In this document: piece by piece, positions 1 to 47,226 of the stretch
Layout of the letters: each line of letters opens with the position of its first letter
Numbering within the stretch: the first letter of the stretch is position 1
Assembly (NCBI RefSeq): GCF_030818655.1
Contig: NZ_JAUTAN010000001.1
Location: 1,612,001-1,676,000, forward strand
DNA length: 64,000 bases
From: Nocardioides zeae
GTDB lineage: Bacteria; Actinomycetota; Actinomycetes; Propionibacteriales; Nocardioidaceae
Direction: 5' to 3'
Notes under the pieces: model-generated
Seen by the model: only the letters and a program-made list of their open reading frames with translations
Told to the model about the DNA's origin: nothing
The model's database searches: none
Program-made: the position numbers and the translations under genes

Positions 1-1322
<1,322 letters not shown>

Positions 1323-22122: not shown

Positions 22123-23361
22123 GTGGCGGGCCGCCGGTCCGTCCCCGCGCTCGTCGAGCGGCACCGCCTCGCCGCCCGGCTGGGCACCGCCGTCTCCCGG
22201 CTCGACCCCGCGCCCGCGACGCCGTGCGCCGTCGTCGACCTCGACGCCTTCGACGCGAACGCCGACGACCTCGTCGCGCGGGCCGGCGGGACGCCGATCC
22301 GGGTGGCCTCGAAGTCGCTGCGCGTCCCCGCGCTGGTGCAGCGCGCGCTCGCGCGGGACGGCTTCGCCGGGGTGCTGGGCTACACCCTGCGCGAGGCGCT
22401 GTGGCTGGTCGACGAGGGCATCAGTGACGACGTCGTCGTCGCCTACCCCACCGTGGACCTCCCCGCACTGCGGCGCCTCACGTCCTCGCCGTCGGCCGCC
22501 GGCGCGGTGACGATCATGGTGGACGACCTCGCCCACCTCGACGTCGTCGACAGCGTGCGGTCCTCCAAGGCCGTGCCCGTGCGCGTCGCGATCGACGTGG
22601 ACGCCGGGCTGCAGGCACCCGGAGGCGTGCACGTCGGGCCGAAGCGCTCGCCGCTGCGCAGCGCGGAGGCCACCCTGGCGCTGGCGCGGGCCGTCGTCGA
22701 GCGGCCGGGGTTCGTGCTGGTGGGGGTCATGACCTACGAGGGACAGGTCGCCGGGGTGCCCGACCGGGTGCCGGGCCAGGCGCCCCGGATGGCCGTCGTG
22801 CGGCGCATCAAGCAGGCGTCCCTGGCGCAGCTGCGCGAGCGTCGGGAAGCCGTGGCGACCGGGATTGCCGAGCTGGCCGACCTCTCCTTCTTCAACGCCG
22901 GCGGCTCCGGCTCGATCGCCGAGTCCGCCGCCGACCCGTCGGTCACCGAGGTCACGGCCGGCTCCGGCCTGCTCGTCCCCGGCCTGTTCGACCACTACCG
23001 CTCCTTCGCGCCGCGGCCCGCGGCGTACTTCGGGGTGCCCGTGACGCGCCGTCCGGGTCCGGGGGTCGCGACGGTGCACGGGGGCGGGTACACGGCGTCC
23101 GGTCCCGCCGGACCCGACCGCCAGGTCCTCCCCTGGGCGCCGCCCGGGCTGGAGCTGACGGCGCTGGAGGCGGCCGGCGAAGTGCAGACGCCGCTGGTCG
23201 GCCCCGGCGCCGACCTGTTGCGCATCGGGGAGCTGGTGTGGTTCCGGCACGCCAAGTCGGGGGAGCTCTTCGAGCACACCGACGTCGCGCACCTGCTCGC
23301 CGGCGACCGGATCACCGAGACCGTCCCCACCTACCGTGGCGCGGGCCAGGCCTTCGGCTGA
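22123..23361 (+). CDS. PLP-dependent fold-III enzyme (alanine racemase N-domain / D-threonine aldolase-like)
   Basis: 412 residues. The PLP lysine is in PIRVASKSLRVPALV (about residue 63), as in alanine racemase/D-serine dehydratase-type barrels; AIDVDAGLQAPGG and FFNAGGSGSIAE are further barrel strands and a phosphate loop. The C-terminal domain with VTAGSGLLVPGLFDHY and a His-containing ELVWFRHAKSGELFEH resembles D-threonine aldolase/DSD1-type proteins, which use a metal. Often annotated as amino acid deaminase; substrate unknown. GTG start one base after the previous stop. The 3' end overlaps the next gene by 26 bp. Confidence 0.85.
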   Translation: MAGRRSVPALVERHRLAARLGTAVSRLDPAPATPCAVVDLDAFDANADDLVARAGGTPIRVASKSLRVPALVQRALARDGFAGVLGYTLREALWLVDEGISDDVVVAYPTVDLPALRRLTSSPSAAGAVTIMVDDLAHLDVVDSVRSSKAVPVRVAIDVDAGLQAPGGVHVGPKRSPLRSAEATLALARAVVERPGFVLVGVMTYEGQVAGVPDRVPGQAPRMAVVRRIKQASLAQLRERREAVATGIAELADLSFFNAGGSGSIAESAADPSVTEVTAGSGLLVPGLFDHYRSFAPRPAAYFGVPVTRRPGPGVATVHGGGYTASGPAGPDRQVLPWAPPGLELTALEAAGEVQTPLVGPGADLLRIGELVWFRHAKSGELFEHTDVAHLLAGDRITETVPTYRGAGQAFG

Positions 23362-23965
23362 GCTGCCCCCGGCGGAGGCCCTGCCCGCCGGGACGCTCGA
23401 GGTGCTGCTGCGGCTCGTGGCCCGGTCCCCGGCCCGGCTCGGTGCCGGCCGGCTCGTCTGCGTGGACGGCCCGTCGGGATCCGGCAAGACCACGGCGGCC
23501 GCCGCCCTCGCGCGGGCGCTCGCGGCCGCGAGCCACGACGTGGTCGAGCTGCACATGGACGACCAGTACGACGGGTGGGACGGCCTGGGTGCCGCGCCCG
23601 GCCGGGTGGCGCGGGACGTCGTGGAGCCGCTGGCGGACGGACGAGCGGGGCGGTACCGGCGCTACGACTGGTACGCCGGGGCCTTCGCCGAGGAGCACGA
23701 GGTGGCGGCGGTCGGTCCCCGTGGCGTCGTGGTCCTCGAGGGCGTCGGGTCGGGAGCGGCGCCGCTCGCGGCGTACCGGAGCGTGCTGGTGTGGGTCGAG
23801 GCGCCCGCGGCGCTGCGGCTGCGCCGCGGGATCGAGCGCGACGGGGAGGCCGCGGCGGAGCACCTGCGGGCCTGGTCGCGTGCCGAGACCGTGCACTTCG
23901 GCGCCCACGGCACCCGCGCCGCCGCCGACGTGCGCCTCGACGCGCACGGTCGGGTGGTCCGCTGA
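23336..23965 (+). CDS. Uridine kinase-like P-loop NTPase
   Basis: 209 residues with a Walker A GPSGSGKTTAA at about 45-55 and a uridine/AAA-kinase type LHMDDQYDGWDGL motif at about 72-84, followed by RYRRYDWYAGAFAE and the Walker-B-like VVLEGVGSG. The arrangement is like uridine kinase or small-molecule kinases; substrate unknown. It overlaps the preceding gene and may act with it. Its stop is followed by the 31-bp repeat array. Confidence 0.82.
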   Translation: MARARPSAELPPAEALPAGTLEVLLRLVARSPARLGAGRLVCVDGPSGSGKTTAAAALARALAAASHDVVELHMDDQYDGWDGLGAAPGRVARDVVEPLADGRAGRYRRYDWYAGAFAEEHEVAAVGPRGVVVLEGVGSGAAPLAAYRSVLVWVEAPAALRLRRGIERDGEAAAEHLRAWSRAETVHFGAHGTRAAADVRLDAHGRVVR

Positions 23966-23973
23966 GGGGTTGA

Positions 23974-24165
23974 CGTCGAGTTTGGTCGTACGTCGCGGCA
24001 GAACCGTCGAGTTTGGTCGAACGGTTGAACTCGGATCAGCGAACACCGCACCGTACGACCCAACTCGACGCGAACGCCGCGCCGTACGACCCAACTCGAC
24101 GCGAACGCCGCGCCGTCCGACCCAACTCGACGCGAACGCCGCGCCGTCCGACCCAACTCGACGCA
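23974..24165. repeat. 31-bp repeat array A (two inverted plus four direct copies)
   Basis: Four direct copies of a unit containing ACGACCCAACTCGACGCGAA are spaced exactly 31 bp apart (their CTCGACG words start at 24064, 24095, 24126 and 24157). Two inverted, slightly diverged copies (CGTCGAGTTTGGTCG at 23974 and 24005) are also exactly 31 bp apart, so the array can form a long hairpin. It lies between the convergent 3' ends of the kinase and PH-protein genes. A related array occurs at 44688-45006. There is no credible coding sequence in it. Confidence 0.95.
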
Positions 24166-24167
24166 GG

Positions 24168-24620
24168 TCAGGCGGCGTCGATGACCTCGCGCAGCTCGCG
24201 GACGGCGGTGCGGGCGCGGGAGCCGTCGGAGGCCTGGATGCCGATCGCCGGGCGGGCCGTGCCGTCCGACAGGTCGATCGTGGCCCACGGGGCGCCGTCG
24301 GGCATCCGCACCGCGACGACCTGCGCCCACTCGTAGGAGTACCGCCGGTAGCCGTTCACCACGACGAGACCGTCGGTGGTCGCCGTCACGCGGCAGCGCA
24401 CCACGCCCCAGAGCACCGCGCCGGCACCGGCGAGGAGGAGCAGCATGGTGATGCGCTGGTACCAGGAGAAGTTGTCCCGCACCTCGGCGTCGAGCAGGAA
24501 CCACGCGGCCAGCATCGCCACCAGGACCGTCGCGCTGGAGAAGCCCGCGGCGATCGAGGTGCCCAGCGGGCGCCACGTGCGGGGCAGCGCCGGCCGACCG
24601 GGCTCAGAGGCGGCAGGCAT
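24168..24620 (-). CDS. PH-like domain membrane protein
   Basis: 150 residues: two hydrophobic helices (about 18-42 and 55-75, the second LLLLAGAGAVLWGVV) and a C-terminal strand-rich part CRVTATTDGLVVVNGYRRYSYEWAQVVAVRMPDGAPWATIDL that fits the bacterial PH domain 6 type. A gene of this kind follows hisG in many actinobacteria. It overlaps the hisG stop by 17 bp. Function unknown. Confidence 0.85.
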   Translation of the reverse strand: MPAASEPGRPALPRTWRPLGTSIAAGFSSATVLVAMLAAWFLLDAEVRDNFSWYQRITMLLLLAGAGAVLWGVVRCRVTATTDGLVVVNGYRRYSYEWAQVVAVRMPDGAPWATIDLSDGTARPAIGIQASDGSRARTAVRELREVIDAA

Positions 24621-30160: not shown

Positions 30161-30264
30161 GCCCTGCTTCCCGGCTACGTCGCGGGCGCCGGGGCGCTGC
30201 GGGATGCTCGGGCGGGGCGGGTCGTGCGCGTGCTGCCGCGGAGGCCGCACGAGGACGACCGTCC

Positions 30265-30391
30265 TGCGTGCGCTTCCCTTCCGGACTCTGACCGTCGGTC
30301 CAGGAATTCCACCTGGTCAACCGTCCGCTGGCTGCGGACGGGTCGCGGACTCTCACCGCCGGCTCGGAATTTCACCGACCCCAGTGCACGC
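30265..30391 (-). ncRNA. FMN riboswitch (RFN element)
   Basis: On the minus strand the conserved RFN blocks are present in order: GGGGTCGGTGAAATTCC, GAGCCGGCGGTGAGAGTCC, a variable stem, GGTGGAATTCCTGGACCGAC and GGTCAGAGTCCGGAAGGGAAG. P1 is closed by GCGTGC on both sides. It lies about 105 nt upstream of ribD, so FMN is expected to switch off ribD-ribE-ribM-ribBA-ribH and possibly hisE-hisG. The remainder of the gap (30161-30264) is the expression platform, GC-rich without an obvious U-run, which favours translational control. Confidence 0.95.
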
Positions 30392-30485
30392 GAGTTGGTC
30401 AACTCGTCTGGTGGGAATTGAAGCACACGGCACCGGCGGTCGGCGGGGGTCCCGCTCCGTGGACCCCCGTGACCCGCGCACGGGC

Positions 30486-41901: not shown

Positions 41902-42447
41902 TCAGCGTCCGAACGGGCCCGTCGGGTGCGGGGACACCTTGACCGTCGGCTTCTCCAGGCCGAACCACTCCGATTCCCGGATCTCCCGCATCGCGGCCTT
42001 GCGGGCCGCGTCGTCGAGGCGGTCGATGAAGAGCACGCCGTCGAGGTGGTCCGTCTCGTGCTGGATGGCGCGCGCCAGCAGCTCGGAGCCGTTGATCGTC
42101 ACGGGCTCCCCGTGCATGTCGAAGCCGCGGGCCACCACCGAGAGCGCACGCCGGCACTCGTAGGTCAGCTCGGGCAGCGAGAGGCAGCCCTCGAGGTCGA
42201 GCTGCTCCTCCTCCGAGAGCTCGAGCGTGGGGTTGACCAGGTGGCCCAGCTCGCCCCCGACGTTCCAGGTGAACACCCGCAGCCCGACACCGATCTGGGG
42301 CGCGGCCAGGCCGGCGCCAGGCGCGTCGAGCATCGTGTCGGTGAGGTCGGCCACGAGCTGGCGCAGCTCGCGGTCGAAGTCGACCACCTCGGTCGCGCGC
42401 CTGCGCAGGACGGGGTCGCCGAAGAGCCGGATGGGTTGGATCGCCAC
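41902..42447 (-). CDS. def: Peptide deformylase
   Basis: 181 residues; removes the N-formyl group from new proteins. All three metal-site motifs are present: [10 protein letters not shown] (about 45-54), EGCLSLP (about 93-99) and QHETDHLDG (about 134-142). GTG start gives [13 protein letters not shown] at the N-terminus as in homologues. Transcribed with fmt and rsmB. Confidence 0.97.
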
Positions 42448-42519
42448 GTCCGCGATCGTACGCGGGAGCGTCGACCACGTCGGTTGCCGCGTCCACGCCC
42501 GTTCGCCATCATCGGCACG

Positions 42520-43050
42520 GTGAGCACTTCCGAGGACGTCGTCGTGCGGCCGGCCCGGGTCGACGACGTCGACGCCGTCTGCGCCTTCGGCGAGGCCCAC
42601 GTCCCGCCGCACTACACGCCGCTCATCGGCGCCGACGCCGCGCGTCAGCAGGTCACCGACTGGTGGCGGCCGGAGCAGATCCGCGCCGCCGTGACGGCCG
42701 GACAGCTGCTCGTGGCCGTCGCGCACGACCGCATCGTCGGAGTGGCCCAGCACGCGCGGGAGGGCGTCGACGTCGTGATCTACAAGCTGTACGTCGACCC
42801 GTCGCGCCGCGGGCACGGCCTCGGGCCACGGTTGATCGAGGCCGTGGTCGCGTCACTTCCACCGGACGTGGCCCGTCTCCTCATCGAGCACTTCGCCGGC
42901 AACGCGCGGGCCGGGGCGTTCTACGAGCGCGAGGGGTTCGCGGTGGAGCGGGTCGACCGCAGCGCCACCGGACGGCCCGAGCTCGATGTGGTGTGGAGAG
43001 CACGGGTGGTGCCGGGGCGCGCCGGGGCGGGGTCGGTCGCCGACGTCTGA
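42520..43050 (+). CDS. GNAT-family N-acetyltransferase
   Basis: 176 residues; acetyl-CoA motif A is VDPSRRGHGLGPRLIEAVV (about 90-108), followed by IEHFAGNARAGAFYEREGF. Similar to PF00583 acetyltransferases of unknown substrate. The GTG start is seven bases after a weak -10 (TTGCCG-17-CATCAT), so leaderless. It is divergent from def and convergent with the HNH gene. Confidence 0.88.
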   Translation: MSTSEDVVVRPARVDDVDAVCAFGEAHVPPHYTPLIGADAARQQVTDWWRPEQIRAAVTAGQLLVAVAHDRIVGVAQHAREGVDVVIYKLYVDPSRRGHGLGPRLIEAVVASLPPDVARLLIEHFAGNARAGAFYEREGFAVERVDRSATGRPELDVVWRARVVPGRAGAGSVADV

Positions 43051-43117
43051 CGCCCCCGGGGCATGCTGCGCCGCCCGGCCACGGGTGTGGGCGGGCGGCG
43101 GTGAGGCGTGGGCGGCG

Positions 43118-44575
43118 CTAGGTGGTCGTTGGTGGCCAGGGGCGGGTGCCGTCTCGGTCGACGAGGTAGCGCAGGCCGGTCGGGCTGGTCCAGATGAGTG
43201 CGTTGGGTGGTTCGCCGTTGTCTGGATGGGTGGGGCGGTAGGTCCACTTGTTGCCGGTGGTCATCTCGCGGTGGGTCTTCATGCGGTGGTGACGCCGGCA
43301 CAGCGGGTACAGGTTCTTGGTCGAGGTCTGGCCGGGTGGGCCGTTGTCCTCGTAGGCGCGGCAGTGGTCGAGGTCGGCGGTTCTCGATGAGCGGGTGCAG
43401 TAGGGGAAGACGCAGCGGGGCCAGCGGGCTCTGACGTGGTCGGCGATGCGGTCCGGTGGGGTGTAGCCGTTCACGGCGTCGTGTTGGTTGAGGTCGATGA
43501 CCGGCTTGATCGTGACGGTGGTGTCGGGGCTGGCGCACCAGGCCTGGACCTGCTCGACCGTCACCGCTCCACGCGGTGCGCCGGGGGTGTCGAGGCGGGC
43601 GAGGTCGATGCCGGTCGTGCCGGTGCAGGCGTCGATCCCCGGACCGAACCCGGTGGTGACGCCGGTGATGGCGGCCTGGTCGAGGTGGACGAAGAGCACC
43701 ACCTCCCGCCGTGTCCGCGCCGGCGTGGGCGGCTGCGTGGGCGGCTGGTCCGCGTCGTACTCCAACGTCGCCACCCCGTCGCAGCGCCGCGCGATCTCAC
43801 CGAGAGCGATGGAGCGGCGGACGTCGTGGTCCTGGTCGCAGCCCAGGTCAGTCAGTTGCCGGGCGACGTGCGCGACGGTGCGTTCCAGGTCGAGCGCATC
43901 AGCCAGGTCCAGCGTCCCGTGGATGTCGACGGTGCCGCGCAGGGTGCCGCTGAGCGGGTCCGCGTAGGCGACGTCGCCCAGCTCGATCGTCAGGTGCCGG
44001 CCGCCGTCGGCCTCGGCCCGTTCCGCCTCGGAGGTCTCGGGGTCGAACCGAGCCGCGGCCTCCGCCACCAGCCGGTCGACCTCGGGACCGGTGGCCTTGG
44101 CCGCGACGTACGCCACGTGGCGGTCGACGAACCCCGCGCCCTCGAACGTCAACGTCCGCGTGGTCTGGGCGATCCGCCGTCCCCGCCACACGTCGACCTC
44201 ACCCGCAGCGATCCGGGCGTGCACCCGGGGCAAGCGGTAGCGCAGCTCCACCGCATCCCCCACCAACCGCCGGGCCGCGTCGAACGAACACCCCCGAGCA
44301 GCGGCCACCTCGCCGATGCAGAACTCCGCCACCACCGGCGCCCCGGGGCCGCCGAGCTCGAGGAAGTGGTCACCAGCCAGGGCCTCGGCGTAGGACTCGT
44401 CGTGCCATTCACCCAACGCCGTGATCGGATCCCCTACGACCTCCTCAGAGGTGTGCGCCGCAGCCCAGTCACCCACCGCGACGAACGCAGCCGCCTCCGC
44501 CACACGAGCAGCGTGTGTGCGCTCGCGGACCGCGTCGATCAACGCAGTCGCCGTGTGTTGGGTCCCCCGATCCAT
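43118..44575 (-). CDS. DUF222 / HNH endonuclease-motif protein (13E12 family)
   Basis: 485 residues. The N-terminal two-thirds is the helical DUF222 region found in the multi-copy 13E12 family of actinobacteria; the C-terminal HNH fold has CVFPYCTRSSRTADLDHCRAYE and LYPLCRRHHRMKTH, with zinc and metal residues in place. It probably nicks or cuts DNA, but targets are unknown. The ATG is six bases after TAAAGT, so leaderless, and the -35/-10 spacer is a LexA-box-like site. Upstream lie a perfect hairpin (44607-44622, ACCACC-TCTC-GGTGGT) and the larger 31-bp repeat array. Such genes in M. tuberculosis have been reported as SOS-linked. Confidence 0.93.
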   Translation of the reverse strand: MDRGTQHTATALIDAVRERTHAARVAEAAAFVAVGDWAAAHTSEEVVGDPITALGEWHDESYAEALAGDHFLELGGPGAPVVAEFCIGEVAAARGCSFDAARRLVGDAVELRYRLPRVHARIAAGEVDVWRGRRIAQTTRTLTFEGAGFVDRHVAYVAAKATGPEVDRLVAEAAARFDPETSEAERAEADGGRHLTIELGDVAYADPLSGTLRGTVDIHGTLDLADALDLERTVAHVARQLTDLGCDQDHDVRRSIALGEIARRCDGVATLEYDADQPPTQPPTPARTRREVVLFVHLDQAAITGVTTGFGPGIDACTGTTGIDLARLDTPGAPRGAVTVEQVQAWCASPDTTVTIKPVIDLNQHDAVNGYTPPDRIADHVRARWPRCVFPYCTRSSRTADLDHCRAYEDNGPPGQTSTKNLYPLCRRHHRMKTHREMTTGNKWTYRPTHPDNGEPPNALIWTSPTGLRYLVDRDGTRPWPPTTT

Positions 44576-44581
44576 GGCCCC

Positions 44582-44610
44582 ACTTTAGTCGAACATGTGT
44601 GCGATAACCA
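44582..44610 (-). promoter_or_regulatory. HNH-gene promoter
   Basis: -10 TAAAGT (minus strand), six bases before the ATG; the -35 position reads TGGTTA, a poor match, with a 17-nt spacer. The spacer is occupied by the LexA-like site. Confidence rests mainly on the -10. Confidence 0.5.
44589..44604. promoter_or_regulatory. Putative LexA (SOS) box
   Basis: TCGAACATGTGTGCGA matches the actinobacterial SOS box TCGAACNNNNGTTCGA at 11 of 12 fixed positions (one T to G). It sits exactly between -35 and -10 of the DUF222-HNH gene, where LexA would block polymerase. Confidence 0.7.
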
Positions 44611-44687
44611 CCTCTCGGTGGTGATCTGTGGATGAGTTGTCACGTACGCAGCGACGAGCTCCCGGCTGCACCGCGGCGTACTGACAA

Positions 44688-45006
44688 CTCGACGCCCCCG
44701 CCGCGCCGTCCGACCCACCTCGACGCACCCGCCGCGCCGTCCAACCCACCTCGACGCACCCGCCGCGCCGTCCGACCCACCTCGACGCACCCGCCGCGCC
44801 GTCCGACCCAACTCGACGCACCCGCCGCGCCGTCCGACCCACCTCGACGCGCTCGCCGCGCCGTCCAACCCAACTCGACGCCCCCGCCGCGCCGTCCAAC
44901 CCAACTCGACGCACCCGCCGCGCCGTACAACCCAACTCGACGCACCCGCCGCGCCGTCCAACCCAACTCGACGCACCCGCCGCGCCGTCCAACCCAACTC
45001 GACGCA
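44688..45006. repeat. 31-bp repeat array B (10 full units plus a partial)
   Basis: Eleven CTCGACG words occur at exact 31-bp intervals from 44688 to 44998. The unit is close to CGTCCGACCCAACTCGACGC plus ACCCGCCGCGC; variation is mostly GACCCA/AACCCA and CACCT/CAACT. It fills nearly the whole gap between the HNH gene promoter and the priA stop. The unit is homologous to array A at 23974-24165, which keeps the same period. 31 is not a multiple of 3, arguing against a coding repeat, and the unit itself is not palindromic. The rest of the 44576-45021 gap holds the HNH promoter and a hairpin. Confidence 0.95.
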
Positions 45007-45021
45007 CGAACGCAAGCCGGG

Positions 45022-47115
45022 CTAGAGCGACGGGGGGTCCACCTGGACGCGGACGGCGTCGAGCTTGCGCGCCGAGCGCTCGCGGGACGCTGCCCCCAGC
45101 CCGGCGGCCAGGGCCGCGCCGTCCCGGGCCGGCACCCGCACCACCGCGCGCACCTCGGGCGGGTCGTCCCCGACCGGCGCGCCCGGCCGACCGGGCACCG
45201 GGACCGGGCCGAGCACCTCGACGGGGGGCGGGACGGCGAGGTGCTCCAGATAGGCCGCCACGGCCGCCTCCTCCCCCGTCACCGTCGCGAGCCGGGCCGC
45301 GGGCGGCAGGTGGGCGGCGGCCCGCTCGGCCGCCTCGCGCTCCGCGAAGCCGAGCGGGTCCCAGCGCACCAGCGCCTGCAACGCCGGCTGCGCAGCGTCA
45401 CCCACCACGACCACCTCGCCCCCCGGCCGCACGAGGGCGGCCACGTTGAGCCAGCGGCGCAGGGCCTCCTCCCCCGTGCGCAGGTCGACCCGCGCCAGTG
45501 CGAGCCACGTGTCGAGCAGCAGCACCCCGGCGTAGCCGCCCTCCGCGACCGGTTCGGCCCCCGGGGTGGCCACGACGATCGCCGGGCTGCCGTCGACCTC
45601 CGCCAGCACGTGGTCGGCCGCCGACGTGCGCACGGTGACGCCGGGGAAGGCACGCCCCAGCTCCTCGGCCGTGCGCTCCTGCCCGACGGCCGGGGCGCGG
45701 AGGCCGCGATGACCGCAGACACCGCACGCCCACCGCGGCTCGGGCGTGCCGCACCACCGGCACGACGGGGGCGAGGTCGGCGAGGACTGGTGCAGCGGAC
45801 CCGTGCACGCGGCGCACCGCGCCGGCGTGCGACACCGCTCGCAGGCCAGCCCCGCGGCGTACCCCGACCGCGGCGTCTGCACCAGCACCGGCCCGCTGGC
45901 GACGCCACGCCGGACGAGGTCGCGGGCCGCCGTGGGCACGCGGACGCTCCGCGCGAACGGGTCCCGCTCCAGCTCGCGGTCGGTCGCCCCCGCGATGCTC
46001 ACACGCACACGTTCCCGGAGGGTCGACCGGGTCATCGCGATCGGCCGCGCCCAGCCGCTCCGCAGCAGCCCCAGGGCCTCCACCGAGCACGCGTGCGCCC
46101 CGATCAGCGCCGCCGCACCGGCACGCTCGGCGCGGAGGGCGGCGACCTCGCGGACGTGGGGGTACGGCGCCCGCGGCTCGGCGTGCAGGTCGTCGCCGTC
46201 GTCCCACACGACGACGAGGCCGAGGTCGTGGACCGGGGCCCAGATCGCCGCCCGCGTGCCGACGACGACCCGCCGCTGGCCCCGGCTGACGGCGAGGAAG
46301 TCCCGGTAGCGGGCAGCGGGGCCGGCGTCGGCCCGCAGCGCCACGTGGCGGCCCTCGCCGAGCAGCGCCGTGAGGGCAGCGTCGACCCGGTCGAGGTCGC
46401 GTCCGTCCGGCACGCAGACGATCACCCCGCGACCGGACGCCTCGACGACCGCCGCCGCGTGCGCGACCAGCGCCGGCCAGTCGACGGCCGGGCCTGCCGT
46501 CCACACGGCGCGCGGCGAGCCGCCGCGCGCCAGGTGCTCGCAGAAGACCGCACCGTGCTCGTGGTCGCCCCAGGCCGCCGTCGCCGCTGCGAGGCGCCGC
46601 TCGCCGTCAGCCGACGTCAACGCCGGAGGCACCGCACCCGGCGGCGCCTTCTCCGTCGTCGCGTGGCGCGGCGGGACCGCCAGGCGGAGCACGTCGGCCC
46701 GCGCCCCGGCGTACCGCTCCGCCACCGCCGCCGTCAACGCCGCGACCTCGGGGAGCAGCACCCGCTCAGGACTCACGACCCGGCGCAACGGCAGCAGTCG
46801 CGGATGCTCGGACTCCGCGCGACGGGCCACGACGAAGCCGTCGACGTCCTGTCCCGCGAAGCGGACCTTCACCCGCACGCCCGGCTGTGCCGTCTCCGCC
46901 ATCCCGGCGGGCACCAGGTAGTCGAACGGCCGGTCGAGGTGGGCCAGCGGCACGTCGACCAGCACCTGGGCAACCGGATCGACCTCGGAGGGCTCCACCT
47001 CGGTGCGCCGTTTCGCGGCCGCGCGCTGCGTCGCCGTACGGGCCTCCCGCACCGTCTCCCGCAGCTCGGGCAGCAACGAGCCCTGCTCGGGCTGCTCGTG
47101 GGCGTCGGCGGTCAC
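45022..47115 (-). CDS. priA: Primosomal protein N' (PriA), helicase motifs degenerate
   Basis: 697 residues. The N-terminal 3'-DNA-binding domain begins VAQVLVDVPLAHLDRPFDYLVP; the zinc-binding cysteines are intact (CERCRTPARCAAC and CRWCGTPEP...CGVCG). The Walker A that PriA helicases carry is missing at the expected place after about residue 215 (RAVWTAGPAVDWP instead of GxTGSGKT), and DEEH is replaced by DDGDD. Such ATPase-dead PriA is common in actinobacteria, so it probably acts as a structural restart factor. GTG start at family length. Array B follows its stop. Confidence 0.93.
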   Translation of the reverse strand: MTADAHEQPEQGSLLPELRETVREARTATQRAAAKRRTEVEPSEVDPVAQVLVDVPLAHLDRPFDYLVPAGMAETAQPGVRVKVRFAGQDVDGFVVARRAESEHPRLLPLRRVVSPERVLLPEVAALTAAVAERYAGARADVLRLAVPPRHATTEKAPPGAVPPALTSADGERRLAAATAAWGDHEHGAVFCEHLARGGSPRAVWTAGPAVDWPALVAHAAAVVEASGRGVIVCVPDGRDLDRVDAALTALLGEGRHVALRADAGPAARYRDFLAVSRGQRRVVVGTRAAIWAPVHDLGLVVVWDDGDDLHAEPRAPYPHVREVAALRAERAGAAALIGAHACSVEALGLLRSGWARPIAMTRSTLRERVRVSIAGATDRELERDPFARSVRVPTAARDLVRRGVASGPVLVQTPRSGYAAGLACERCRTPARCAACTGPLHQSSPTSPPSCRWCGTPEPRWACGVCGHRGLRAPAVGQERTAEELGRAFPGVTVRTSAADHVLAEVDGSPAIVVATPGAEPVAEGGYAGVLLLDTWLALARVDLRTGEEALRRWLNVAALVRPGGEVVVVGDAAQPALQALVRWDPLGFAEREAAERAAAHLPPAARLATVTGEEAAVAAYLEHLAVPPPVEVLGPVPVPGRPGAPVGDDPPEVRAVVRVPARDGAALAAGLGAASRERSARKLDAVRVQVDPPSL

Positions 47116-47185
47116 GGGGACAGGTCTACCGTGCGCCGCCGACAGTCCGCAGCGTGGGGCGGCTCTCCCTGGGGATGACCGGCGG

Positions 47186-47226
47186 CGTGGCCCCAGCGCC
47201 ACGGAAAACGGCTCGTTGGGGCCACG
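47186..47226. repeat. Dispersed hairpin element, copy 1
   Basis: CGTGGCCCCA pairs with TGGGGCCACG around a 21-nt centre containing ACGGAAAACGG. It follows the stop of the membrane-protein gene by 23 bp on the minus strand. A relative with the same outer arms and a GGGAAACGG centre is at 62817-62861. Confidence 0.75.

Follow-up and report, generated by a model that had tools for sequence, protein, structure and literature searches.

Two repeat arrays and the genes around them

The window analyzed here is a 64,000-bp stretch of the genome of Nocardioides zeae (G000:C1:1612001-1676000), which comprises 4,380,404 bp in one contig. Its two arrays of a 31-bp repeat, termed A and B, are surrounded by the following features.

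23336..23965, + strand: P-loop NTPase-like host gene on the left side of array A (Pfam search, head positions)
23969..24168, no strand assigned: array A, two units on the - strand and four on the + strand, filling the gap between convergent genes (unit scan, RNA fold)
24168..24620, - strand: host gene with a bPH_6 domain on the right side of array A (Pfam search, head positions)
41902..42816, - strand: older priA neighbor, which we take from its sequence to be a peptide deformylase gene (tblastn in priA loci of relatives)
43062..43117, - strand: right end of the subfamily A element, a GC-rich hairpin and then GGGCGGCGCAGCATG (3' flank comparison)
43118..44575, - strand: gene for a DUF222 (PF02720) protein of 485 aa with a C-terminal HNH zinc-finger nuclease motif, subfamily A (Pfam, alignment)
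44603..44626, - strand: short imperfect palindrome (GATCACCACCGAGAGGTGGTTATC) separating the DnaA-box-like site from the gene, also seen at other subfamily A copies (by eye)
44627..44635, - strand: DnaA-box-like TCATCCACA, upstream of the DUF222-HNH gene (motif count, upstream regions)
44634..44693, - strand: terminal hairpin of array B, a variant (type 1) unit, GTCGAGTTGTCAGTACGCCG... pairing with ...CGTACGTGACAACTC (sequence, RNA fold)
44685..45009, - strand: array B, ten full 31-bp units and an eleventh, variant head (TRF, unit scan, head positions)
45022..47202, - strand: priA, the host gene with array B at its 3' end (Pfam PriA_3primeBD, gene caller); the coordinates are those of the longest frame, and the start may be 47115

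Array B thus stands between priA and the DUF222-HNH gene. On the basis of TRF, it spans 44685-45007 with a period of 31 bp, 10.4 copies, and 94% matches, and array A spans 24039-24164 with the same period, 4.1 copies, and 96% matches, i.e., neighboring units are 94-96% alike. A 31-position weight matrix located 10 full units in array B (44700-45009) and, in array A, four on the + strand (24045-24168) and two on the - strand (23969-24030), with the - arms and + arms able to pair. The first-pass annotation had counted eleven copies at 31-bp spacing in array B and four direct and two inverted copies in array A. Both counts held, the eleventh copy of array B being a variant head (GTCGAGTTGTC, at 44683) that continues the 31-bp steps of the GTCGAG heads (n = 11). 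Read from its head on the - strand of array B, the unit is GTCGAG(T/G)TGGGT(C/T)G(G/T)ACGGCGCGGC followed by a variable rest; its general form is GTCGAG-TTGGGTCGTACGGCGCGGC, again with a variable rest behind, and the head of the G000 units has the form G[TC]CGAG. The GTYGAG head itself was recognized after the fact. Within the window, CCAACTCGACG occurs 27 times with at most one mismatch as compared to 3.15 expected, and the maximum of 100 shuffles was 7. The first head of array B starts 18 bp past the end of priA, the first head on the left side of array A lies 9 bp past the end of the P-loop NTPase-like gene, and the nearest head on its right side lies 5 bp from the end of the bPH_6 gene.

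Several trivial origins of the arrays were considered and rejected. The units of both arrays are joined head-to-tail with no spacers between them, which rules out a CRISPR array and agrees with the earlier remark that CRISPR-like unique spacers are missing. A coding repeat was also rejected, because 31 is not a multiple of 3 (as had been pointed out) and the midpoints of only 2 of 297 units fall inside a called gene. Assembly duplication, a doubt raised with the initial description, was looked for and dismissed because the copies differ and because several arrays, including array B with priA and the DUF222 gene, are found at the corresponding place in G064, a close relative that also carries the units. 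A phage or plasmid origin was rejected as well, there being no phage match and only two records in the plasmid collection with weak partial matches (39-49% of the query, 68-69% identity). Rfam had no match at the arrays at the gathering threshold, and the exact tandem pattern gave 0 matches in a collection of named genomes from which the genome's own or near records may be absent. Our literature searches gave no description of a family with such a unit, in line with the first reading.

As had been proposed at the outset, the unit was searched for in the whole genome and in relatives. The exact 15-mer core CGACCMAACTCGACG has 119 copies in G000 and 30 in G064, and 7 others of the 215 genus genomes have a single copy; more than one core copy is thus present in 2 of the 215. 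The type 1 unit, in which TGTCAC replaces TGGGTC, is present in three of them (27 copies in G000, 26 in G064, and 58 in G234). BLAST with a three-unit query returned 105 matches in G000 and 55 in G064, and the BLAST and core matches were grouped by hand into 41 G000 pieces and 31 G064 pieces. In the 41 G000 loci (426,226 bp), the weight matrix, which had been trained on these same loci, found 297 units, as compared to 0 in 206,261 bp that had been Markov-resampled from 20 of the 41. These units form 48 clusters, three single degenerate core matches (near 1.00, 2.83, and 3.31 Mb) and the places holding type-1 units only being left out, and further units stand at two DUF222 copies outside the 41 pieces (L203 and L208). 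Same-strand steps in G000 measured 31 bp in 209 of 225 cases and 32 bp in 11. Copy number is unequal between corresponding arrays of G000 and G064. The results support one genuine, non-CRISPR repeat family that recurs in the genome and in one relative.

Placement at gene ends and RNA folding

The position of the repeats relative to genes was measured with boundaries from a home-made gene caller. When the strand of the gene was ignored, 44 of 62 G000 runs and 21 of 35 G064 runs had the GTCGAG head no more than 13 bp from a gene boundary; the corresponding numbers for tails were 5 of 61 and 1 of 35. For runs of at least two units in G000, the head faces a stop codon in 48 of 62 (median 1 bp, with 43 of these within 13 bp) and a gene start in 14, and in G064 it faces a stop codon in 23 of 35 and a gene start in 12. 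Of the 48 G000 clusters in the 41 fetched loci, 34 are not directly at a DUF222 gene, one of which adjoins a DUF222 copy outside the fetched piece; 19 of the 34 lie between convergent genes and 3 between divergent genes. Inverted copies form hairpins with their heads outward between convergent genes, and direct arrays stand behind single genes.

RNA folding was then compared with that of shuffled sequences. Three inverted pairs gave z values of -9.4, -4.4, and -17.0, the first for a G064 element with a 27-bp stem (-54.7 kcal/mol) and the second for part of array A (23969-24075, -52 kcal/mol). The direct part of array B folded no better than its shuffles (z 0.47), on which basis a role of array B as folded RNA was rejected, and its type-1 terminal hairpin gave a moderate fold (-43.9 kcal/mol, z -2.5). 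Two single units also folded no better than shuffles (z -0.9 and -0.6). The original characterization of the units as not palindromic is therefore correct for single units but misses that units in opposite orientation are the arms of hairpins. No clear U-run was seen by eye at the arrays.

One reading of these data is that the repeats are terminators or mRNA 3'-end hairpins of the host, amplified by slippage, and that DUF222-HNH elements prefer such gene ends as a safe site. The position immediately after stop codons, the hairpins between convergent genes, and the strong folds of the inverted pairs are consistent with it. Direct arrays such as B, however, show no special fold, the terminal hairpin of B reaches only z -2.5, and the repeats are lineage-specific (the counts of 2 and 3 among 215 genomes given above), whereas terminators are needed generally. 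The genes next to the arrays, described below, bear further on this explanation.

The DUF222-HNH genes and their association with the repeats

The DUF222 protein encoded beside array B matches PF02720 with 35.6 bits (cut-off 24.4). Its match to Pfam HNH (E 0.049) is under the curated cut-off, and 21 of 55 homologs match this family with E 0.05 or better. In the 55 aligned homologs C388, C393, D401, H404, C426, H430, K433, and H435 are invariant, and the C-terminal motif reads C-x4-C ... DLDH ... LxPLCRxHHRxKTH-like, a Cys/His/Asp pattern that we take to be typical of HNH zinc-finger nucleases. There are 20 PF02720 matches in G000 and 21 in G064, and a diverged subfamily C adds three more copies in G000. 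Of 59 Nocardioides genomes searched, 58 have DUF222-HNH genes, with as many as 33 PF02720 matches in a single genome. NCBIfam had no match for DUF222-HNH, and PADLOC assigned 0 families to three of the proteins, one per subfamily. The AlphaFold2 model was poor (mean pLDDT 64.7, pTM 0.42), and Foldseek with this model gave no match in the PDB at E 0.001 or better; a sequence profile gave two weak PDB matches (best E 0.0043), which are not convincing. An HNH nuclease of M. smegmatis fragments DNA (PMC9416677) but was set aside as evidence because the accessible part of that text does not call it DUF222 or 13E12.

Comparison of the copies defined the ends of the elements. Paralogs of subfamily A diverge past the hairpin and GGCGGCGCAGCATG, those of subfamily B diverge directly after the stop codon, and array-free DUF222 copies start near TCATCCACA or TTGTCCACA. 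Twenty-two DUF222 copies carry the subfamily A right end, which was also found at one deletion remnant (L219) and as one stray match with one mismatch. The DnaA-box-like site, with at most one mismatch, is present in 29 of 46 DUF222 upstream regions versus 7 of 557 controls (19 of 23 for subfamily A) and is absent at this stringency from those of G148 (0/6), G025 (0/6), G126 (0/4), and subfamily C (0/6). This site may link the expression or mobility of the genes to replication. Variants of the DnaA-box-like TTATCCACA are also seen closely upstream of many DUF222-HNH genes in several genomes, with an exact copy at 7 of 8 G077 genes.

Within 700 bp upstream, units of the family accompany 16 of the 22 DUF222 genes in G000 and 17 of the 24 in G064; downstream there are none (0/22 and 0/24). 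The upstream units share one orientation, from host gene to nuclease gene, in 107 of 115 cases in G000 and 63 of 65 in G064; on the maps, several units with the other orientation form the second arm of the terminal hairpin. The counts of 22 and 24 copies leave out the DUF222 pieces below 700 bits (L184, L192, L195, and L201), the duplicate L199, and a G000 copy near 4.0608 Mb that lay beyond the fetched pieces. No upstream unit was found at 6 of 22 copies in G000 and 7 of 24 in G064, and of the corresponding pair L203/L145 only one genome has the array. Given these copies and the 34 clusters that are not placed directly beside a DUF222 gene, array and gene are partly independent.

The same arrangement was found with other repeats in the genus. 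G148 carries 49 copies (at most two mismatches) of an unrelated unit, GGTCAGTTTCNGCGGGTTGAG, preceded by a GTCGAG head and spaced in 22-bp steps. In its loci, seen for 30 of the 49 places, units commonly start 7-12 bp past stop codons, inverted pairs with stems of up to 35 bp stand between convergent genes, and direct arrays stand upstream of DUF222 genes. A third repeat, in G077, is spaced 153-171 bp and lies at DUF222 genes in 13 of 14 distinct loci, the remaining one being incomplete at a contig end. In N. zeae JCM 30728 the type-1 word is upstream of 5 of 10 DUF222 copies. For named species, 80 loci were returned, of which 55 were used to choose words and 44, from six species, for the counts (L434 was dropped). 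GTTGAG- or GTCGAG-headed units occur upstream of DUF222 in 43 of the 44 loci, with 152 of 153 units oriented the same way. Their density there is 2.1-8.9 per kb as compared to 0-0.8 per kb elsewhere in the loci, about 3 to 80 times higher in five species (the sixth has no copy elsewhere); this contrast is partly circular because the words were chosen from the same upstream regions, whereas the orientation result is not circular. Many arrays in the six species are not directly at a stop codon, and no clear repeat was seen by eye before the DUF222 genes of G036, G018, and G126. The recurring traits, which the first-pass annotation had not pointed out, are the position at stop codons, the polarity, and the neighboring DUF222-HNH gene, and the association of REP-like gene-end repeats with an HNH partner is well supported.

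These findings bear on three other explanations. The existence of both DUF222 genes without arrays and arrays without DUF222 genes fits host terminators visited by mobile elements. The upstream enrichment in five species (with the reservation about word choice) does not, nor does the absence of units downstream of DUF222 genes, where a terminator would be equally useful, and we consider the terminator explanation unlikely. The first-pass annotation had suggested that a spacing of 31 bp presents the same face of the helix and suits cooperative protein binding. Both 31 bp and 22 bp are near whole DNA turns and the spacing in G000 is strict (209 of 225 steps), which agrees with helical phasing of sites bound by a nucleoid or partition-like protein. 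However, the period varies among lineages, short hairpins occupy corresponding places in G064, and the unit sequence differs among species that have the layout in common. Since the same layout occurs with an unrelated 22-bp unit, with gaps of 153-171 bp, and with short hairpins, helical phasing is not needed; the comparison did not support the suggestion, and we regard it as very improbable. A third possibility is that the array controls the DUF222-HNH gene in cis, perhaps as an insulator, and that solo arrays are leftovers of lost elements. Its fixed 5' position beside the DnaA-box-like site and the palindrome fits this idea, as does one G234 locus that retains array, hairpin, and right end around a deleted gene. 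Yet most clusters (34 of 48) are not directly at DUF222 genes, 19 of these being between convergent genes, and no subfamily A right end was found at solo arrays in the fetched G000 or G064 loci. Deletion of nuclease elements, as judged by a search for this right end, accounts for the one G234 locus and was rejected for solo arrays in general, and a purely regulatory role appears scarcely probable.

Turnover of the elements and comparison with known systems

To place array B in context, priA was located in 58 of 59 genus genomes and the best 30 loci, the window's own included, were compared. A deformylase-like match (tblastn) lies close behind priA in 24 of 29 relatives; in 2 the gap is larger and contains another called gene, and in 3 there is no such match within 1.5 kb behind priA. 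The conserved part of the deformylase-like gene in the window begins near 42447. In view of the 24 relatives, array B together with the DUF222-HNH gene looks like an insertion, common to G064. Its far boundary is left loose because of an additional small reading frame at about 42519-43050 (+), presumably GNAT acetyltransferase-like, between the element and the deformylase-like gene.

For sixteen G000 loci the fetched pieces included no G064 array, and each of these loci was compared with the G064 genome. At six of these sites (L090, L094, L112, L120, L097, and L100) G000 has class 2 or 3 arrays, and G064 has type-1 hairpins with matching arms and one or two heads per arm. The place of L108 holds a DUF222 copy in G064. 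Nothing similar was found in G064 for L084, L086, L098, L115, and the second L119 site, L101 and L121 had no G064 match, and L110 matched in its margins only. The place of L096 is occupied in G064 by a different short array, a direct one of about five copies of CGCCGAGCTTGGTCGAA in 17-bp steps (L189:8950-9770). One locus is known in three states, with array and nuclease in G064, with the array only in G000, and with a short array, the hairpin, and the right end but the gene deleted in G234. The two arms of a hairpin are more alike than arms across loci, the observed value being reached by 0, 0, and 34 of 5000 shuffles in G000, G064, and G148, respectively. Arm classes agree in 15 of 20 hairpins (expected 9.0) and in 10 of 10 (expected 5.2), the 5 of 20 with unequal classes being in G000.

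Neutral minisatellites, in which slippage in non-coding gaps expands 31-bp units with no partner protein, would account for the unequal copy number of corresponding arrays and for adjacent units being 94-96% alike. Slippage alone, however, can neither scatter one unit over dozens of places nor keep hairpin arms matched through a change of class, and the tie to DUF222 genes and the recurrence with unrelated units are left unexplained. We judge this explanation improbable.

The nuclease genes are homogenized within each genome. Twenty DUF222 pairs at corresponding places in G000 and G064 are 79.9-85.9% identical, and neighboring segments are 88-95% identical. Fourteen pairs were assigned by aligned flanks, L108/L195 and L203/L145 by locus comparison, L209/L217, L210/L216, and L211/L214 by eye on the flanks, and L212/L213 by position only. 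Seen from G000, 18 of 20 copies are closer to a paralog of their own genome than to the partner (all but L102 and L212); seen from G064, 19 of 20 are (all but L134). Concerted evolution by gene conversion has this pattern.

On balance we favor, by a modest degree, the interpretation that the arrays are REP/BIME-like gene-end repeats forming a selfish pair with the DUF222-HNH (13E12-family) nuclease. We infer that the predicted nuclease acts on the repeats and that repair follows. The nuclease would recognize or cut at the repeat heads, and gene conversion during repair from another copy would spread units, hairpins, and the nuclease gene and keep them homogeneous. Slippage or unequal repair would let arrays grow in 31-bp steps. 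Placement at gene ends would persist because an insertion at such a site is not very harmful, and the hairpin may serve as a 3'-end structure. The lack of a special fold in array B and the 34 of 48 clusters not directly at DUF222 genes slightly lowered our confidence in this interpretation and in the broader one given below.

The resemblances of such a pair to known systems are partial. RAYTs are REP-associated tyrosine transposases related to IS200/IS605. MIRU and other minisatellites of Actinobacteria are, like the present family, dispersed intergenic tandem repeats, but no link between these and a nuclease gene, or oriented hairpin arms, is known to us. Homing endonucleases and the IscB/HEARO HNH elements use an HNH nuclease and spread by copying into cleaved sites and gene conversion; here no intron, intein, RuvC domain, or guide RNA was recognized, and unlike homing endonuclease sites the repeats are many and also stand alone.

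REP/BIME sequences with RAYT partners are short, high-copy, extragenic, and lineage-specific and occur singly, as inverted pairs, or in clusters; they have covarying stems and a short head motif, and the partner gene outpaces its neighbors in evolution and carries repeats (PMC2817692, PMC3733652). Published REPs lie mostly less than 20 bp from gene 3' ends (PMC3733652). The Nocardioides repeats are likewise high-copy (119 cores and 297 units in G000), extragenic, dispersed, lineage-specific, and located at gene 3' ends. They also resemble REPs in occurring singly, as inverted pairs, or in clusters, in their covarying stems and short head motif, and in having a repeat-carrying partner gene that changes faster than the genes around it. 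They differ in that the partner is an HNH protein and not a Y1 tyrosine transposase, the repeats flank it on the 5' side only whereas RAYT genes are flanked on both sides, a single unit is not palindromic, the head is GTCGAG or GTTGAG and not GTAG, and direct arrays have a fixed step of 31 or 22 bp. PF01797 (Y1, RAYT-type transposase) was not found in any of the five genomes searched (G000, G064, G148, G234, and G077), and control genomes were positive in 5 of 14. CGTC-tagged REPs are also gene-end palindromes without a known transposase, and many heads here read CGTCGAG. Their CGTC tag is an unpaired end motif, in families from five phyla among which the accessible part of the report does not name Actinobacteria (PMC3733652); in Nocardioides the CGTC lies inside the stem and varies (CGCC).

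The mycobacterial REP13E12 loci are DUF222-HNH genes and rank among the most gene-converted loci of M. tuberculosis, with 87 conversion events in REP13E12 regions, and according to the same preprint they lack a defined biological function (PMC13061034). REP13E12 is also among the repetitive elements found by DIVE (PMC10589994). As judged from these descriptions, the two groups have multicopy DUF222-HNH genes and gene conversion in common; short stop-codon-anchored repeats coupled to the gene, as seen here, are not mentioned in the accessible parts of those texts. Among the matches listed in searches of the open-access literature, none coupled DUF222 or HNH proteins with gene-end repeats.

A broader reading, to which we give a little less than even odds, is that DUF222-HNH proteins are dedicated mobilizers of a superfamily of gene-end repeats with GTYGAG heads. 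Proteins and repeats would then form a second REP system, based on an HNH enzyme, that would have arisen independently of RAYT and would work by cleavage and gene conversion, not by single-strand transposition. If the coupling is true, it gives a testable job to DUF222-HNH, a large unexplained family, adds a second kind of partner enzyme for REP-like repeats, and bears on the REP13E12 loci as gene-conversion hot spots. The Nocardioides species whose units are unrelated serve as natural replicates, so that the specificity of enzyme for repeat is directly testable.

Other repeats were encountered in the fetched loci. A second dispersed inverted repeat, GACGTCATGC...GCATGACGTC, is intergenic in G000 and G064 (L083, L088, and L124), a dispersed AAAACGCGGAC-type repeat is present at L098 and L191, and a dispersed family around ATGTGCGCCTGGTGCCG...CCGCACAGT occurs at L115, L198, and L139. 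In G064 a CCCGCCGCCCGGCT-type minisatellite lies directly behind a DUF222-HNH element (L127:7000-7230). Elsewhere in the window, Rfam identified an FMN riboswitch (RF00050) at 30264-30393 (-) and a 16S rRNA gene at 1-1322 (-) that is cut by the window edge.
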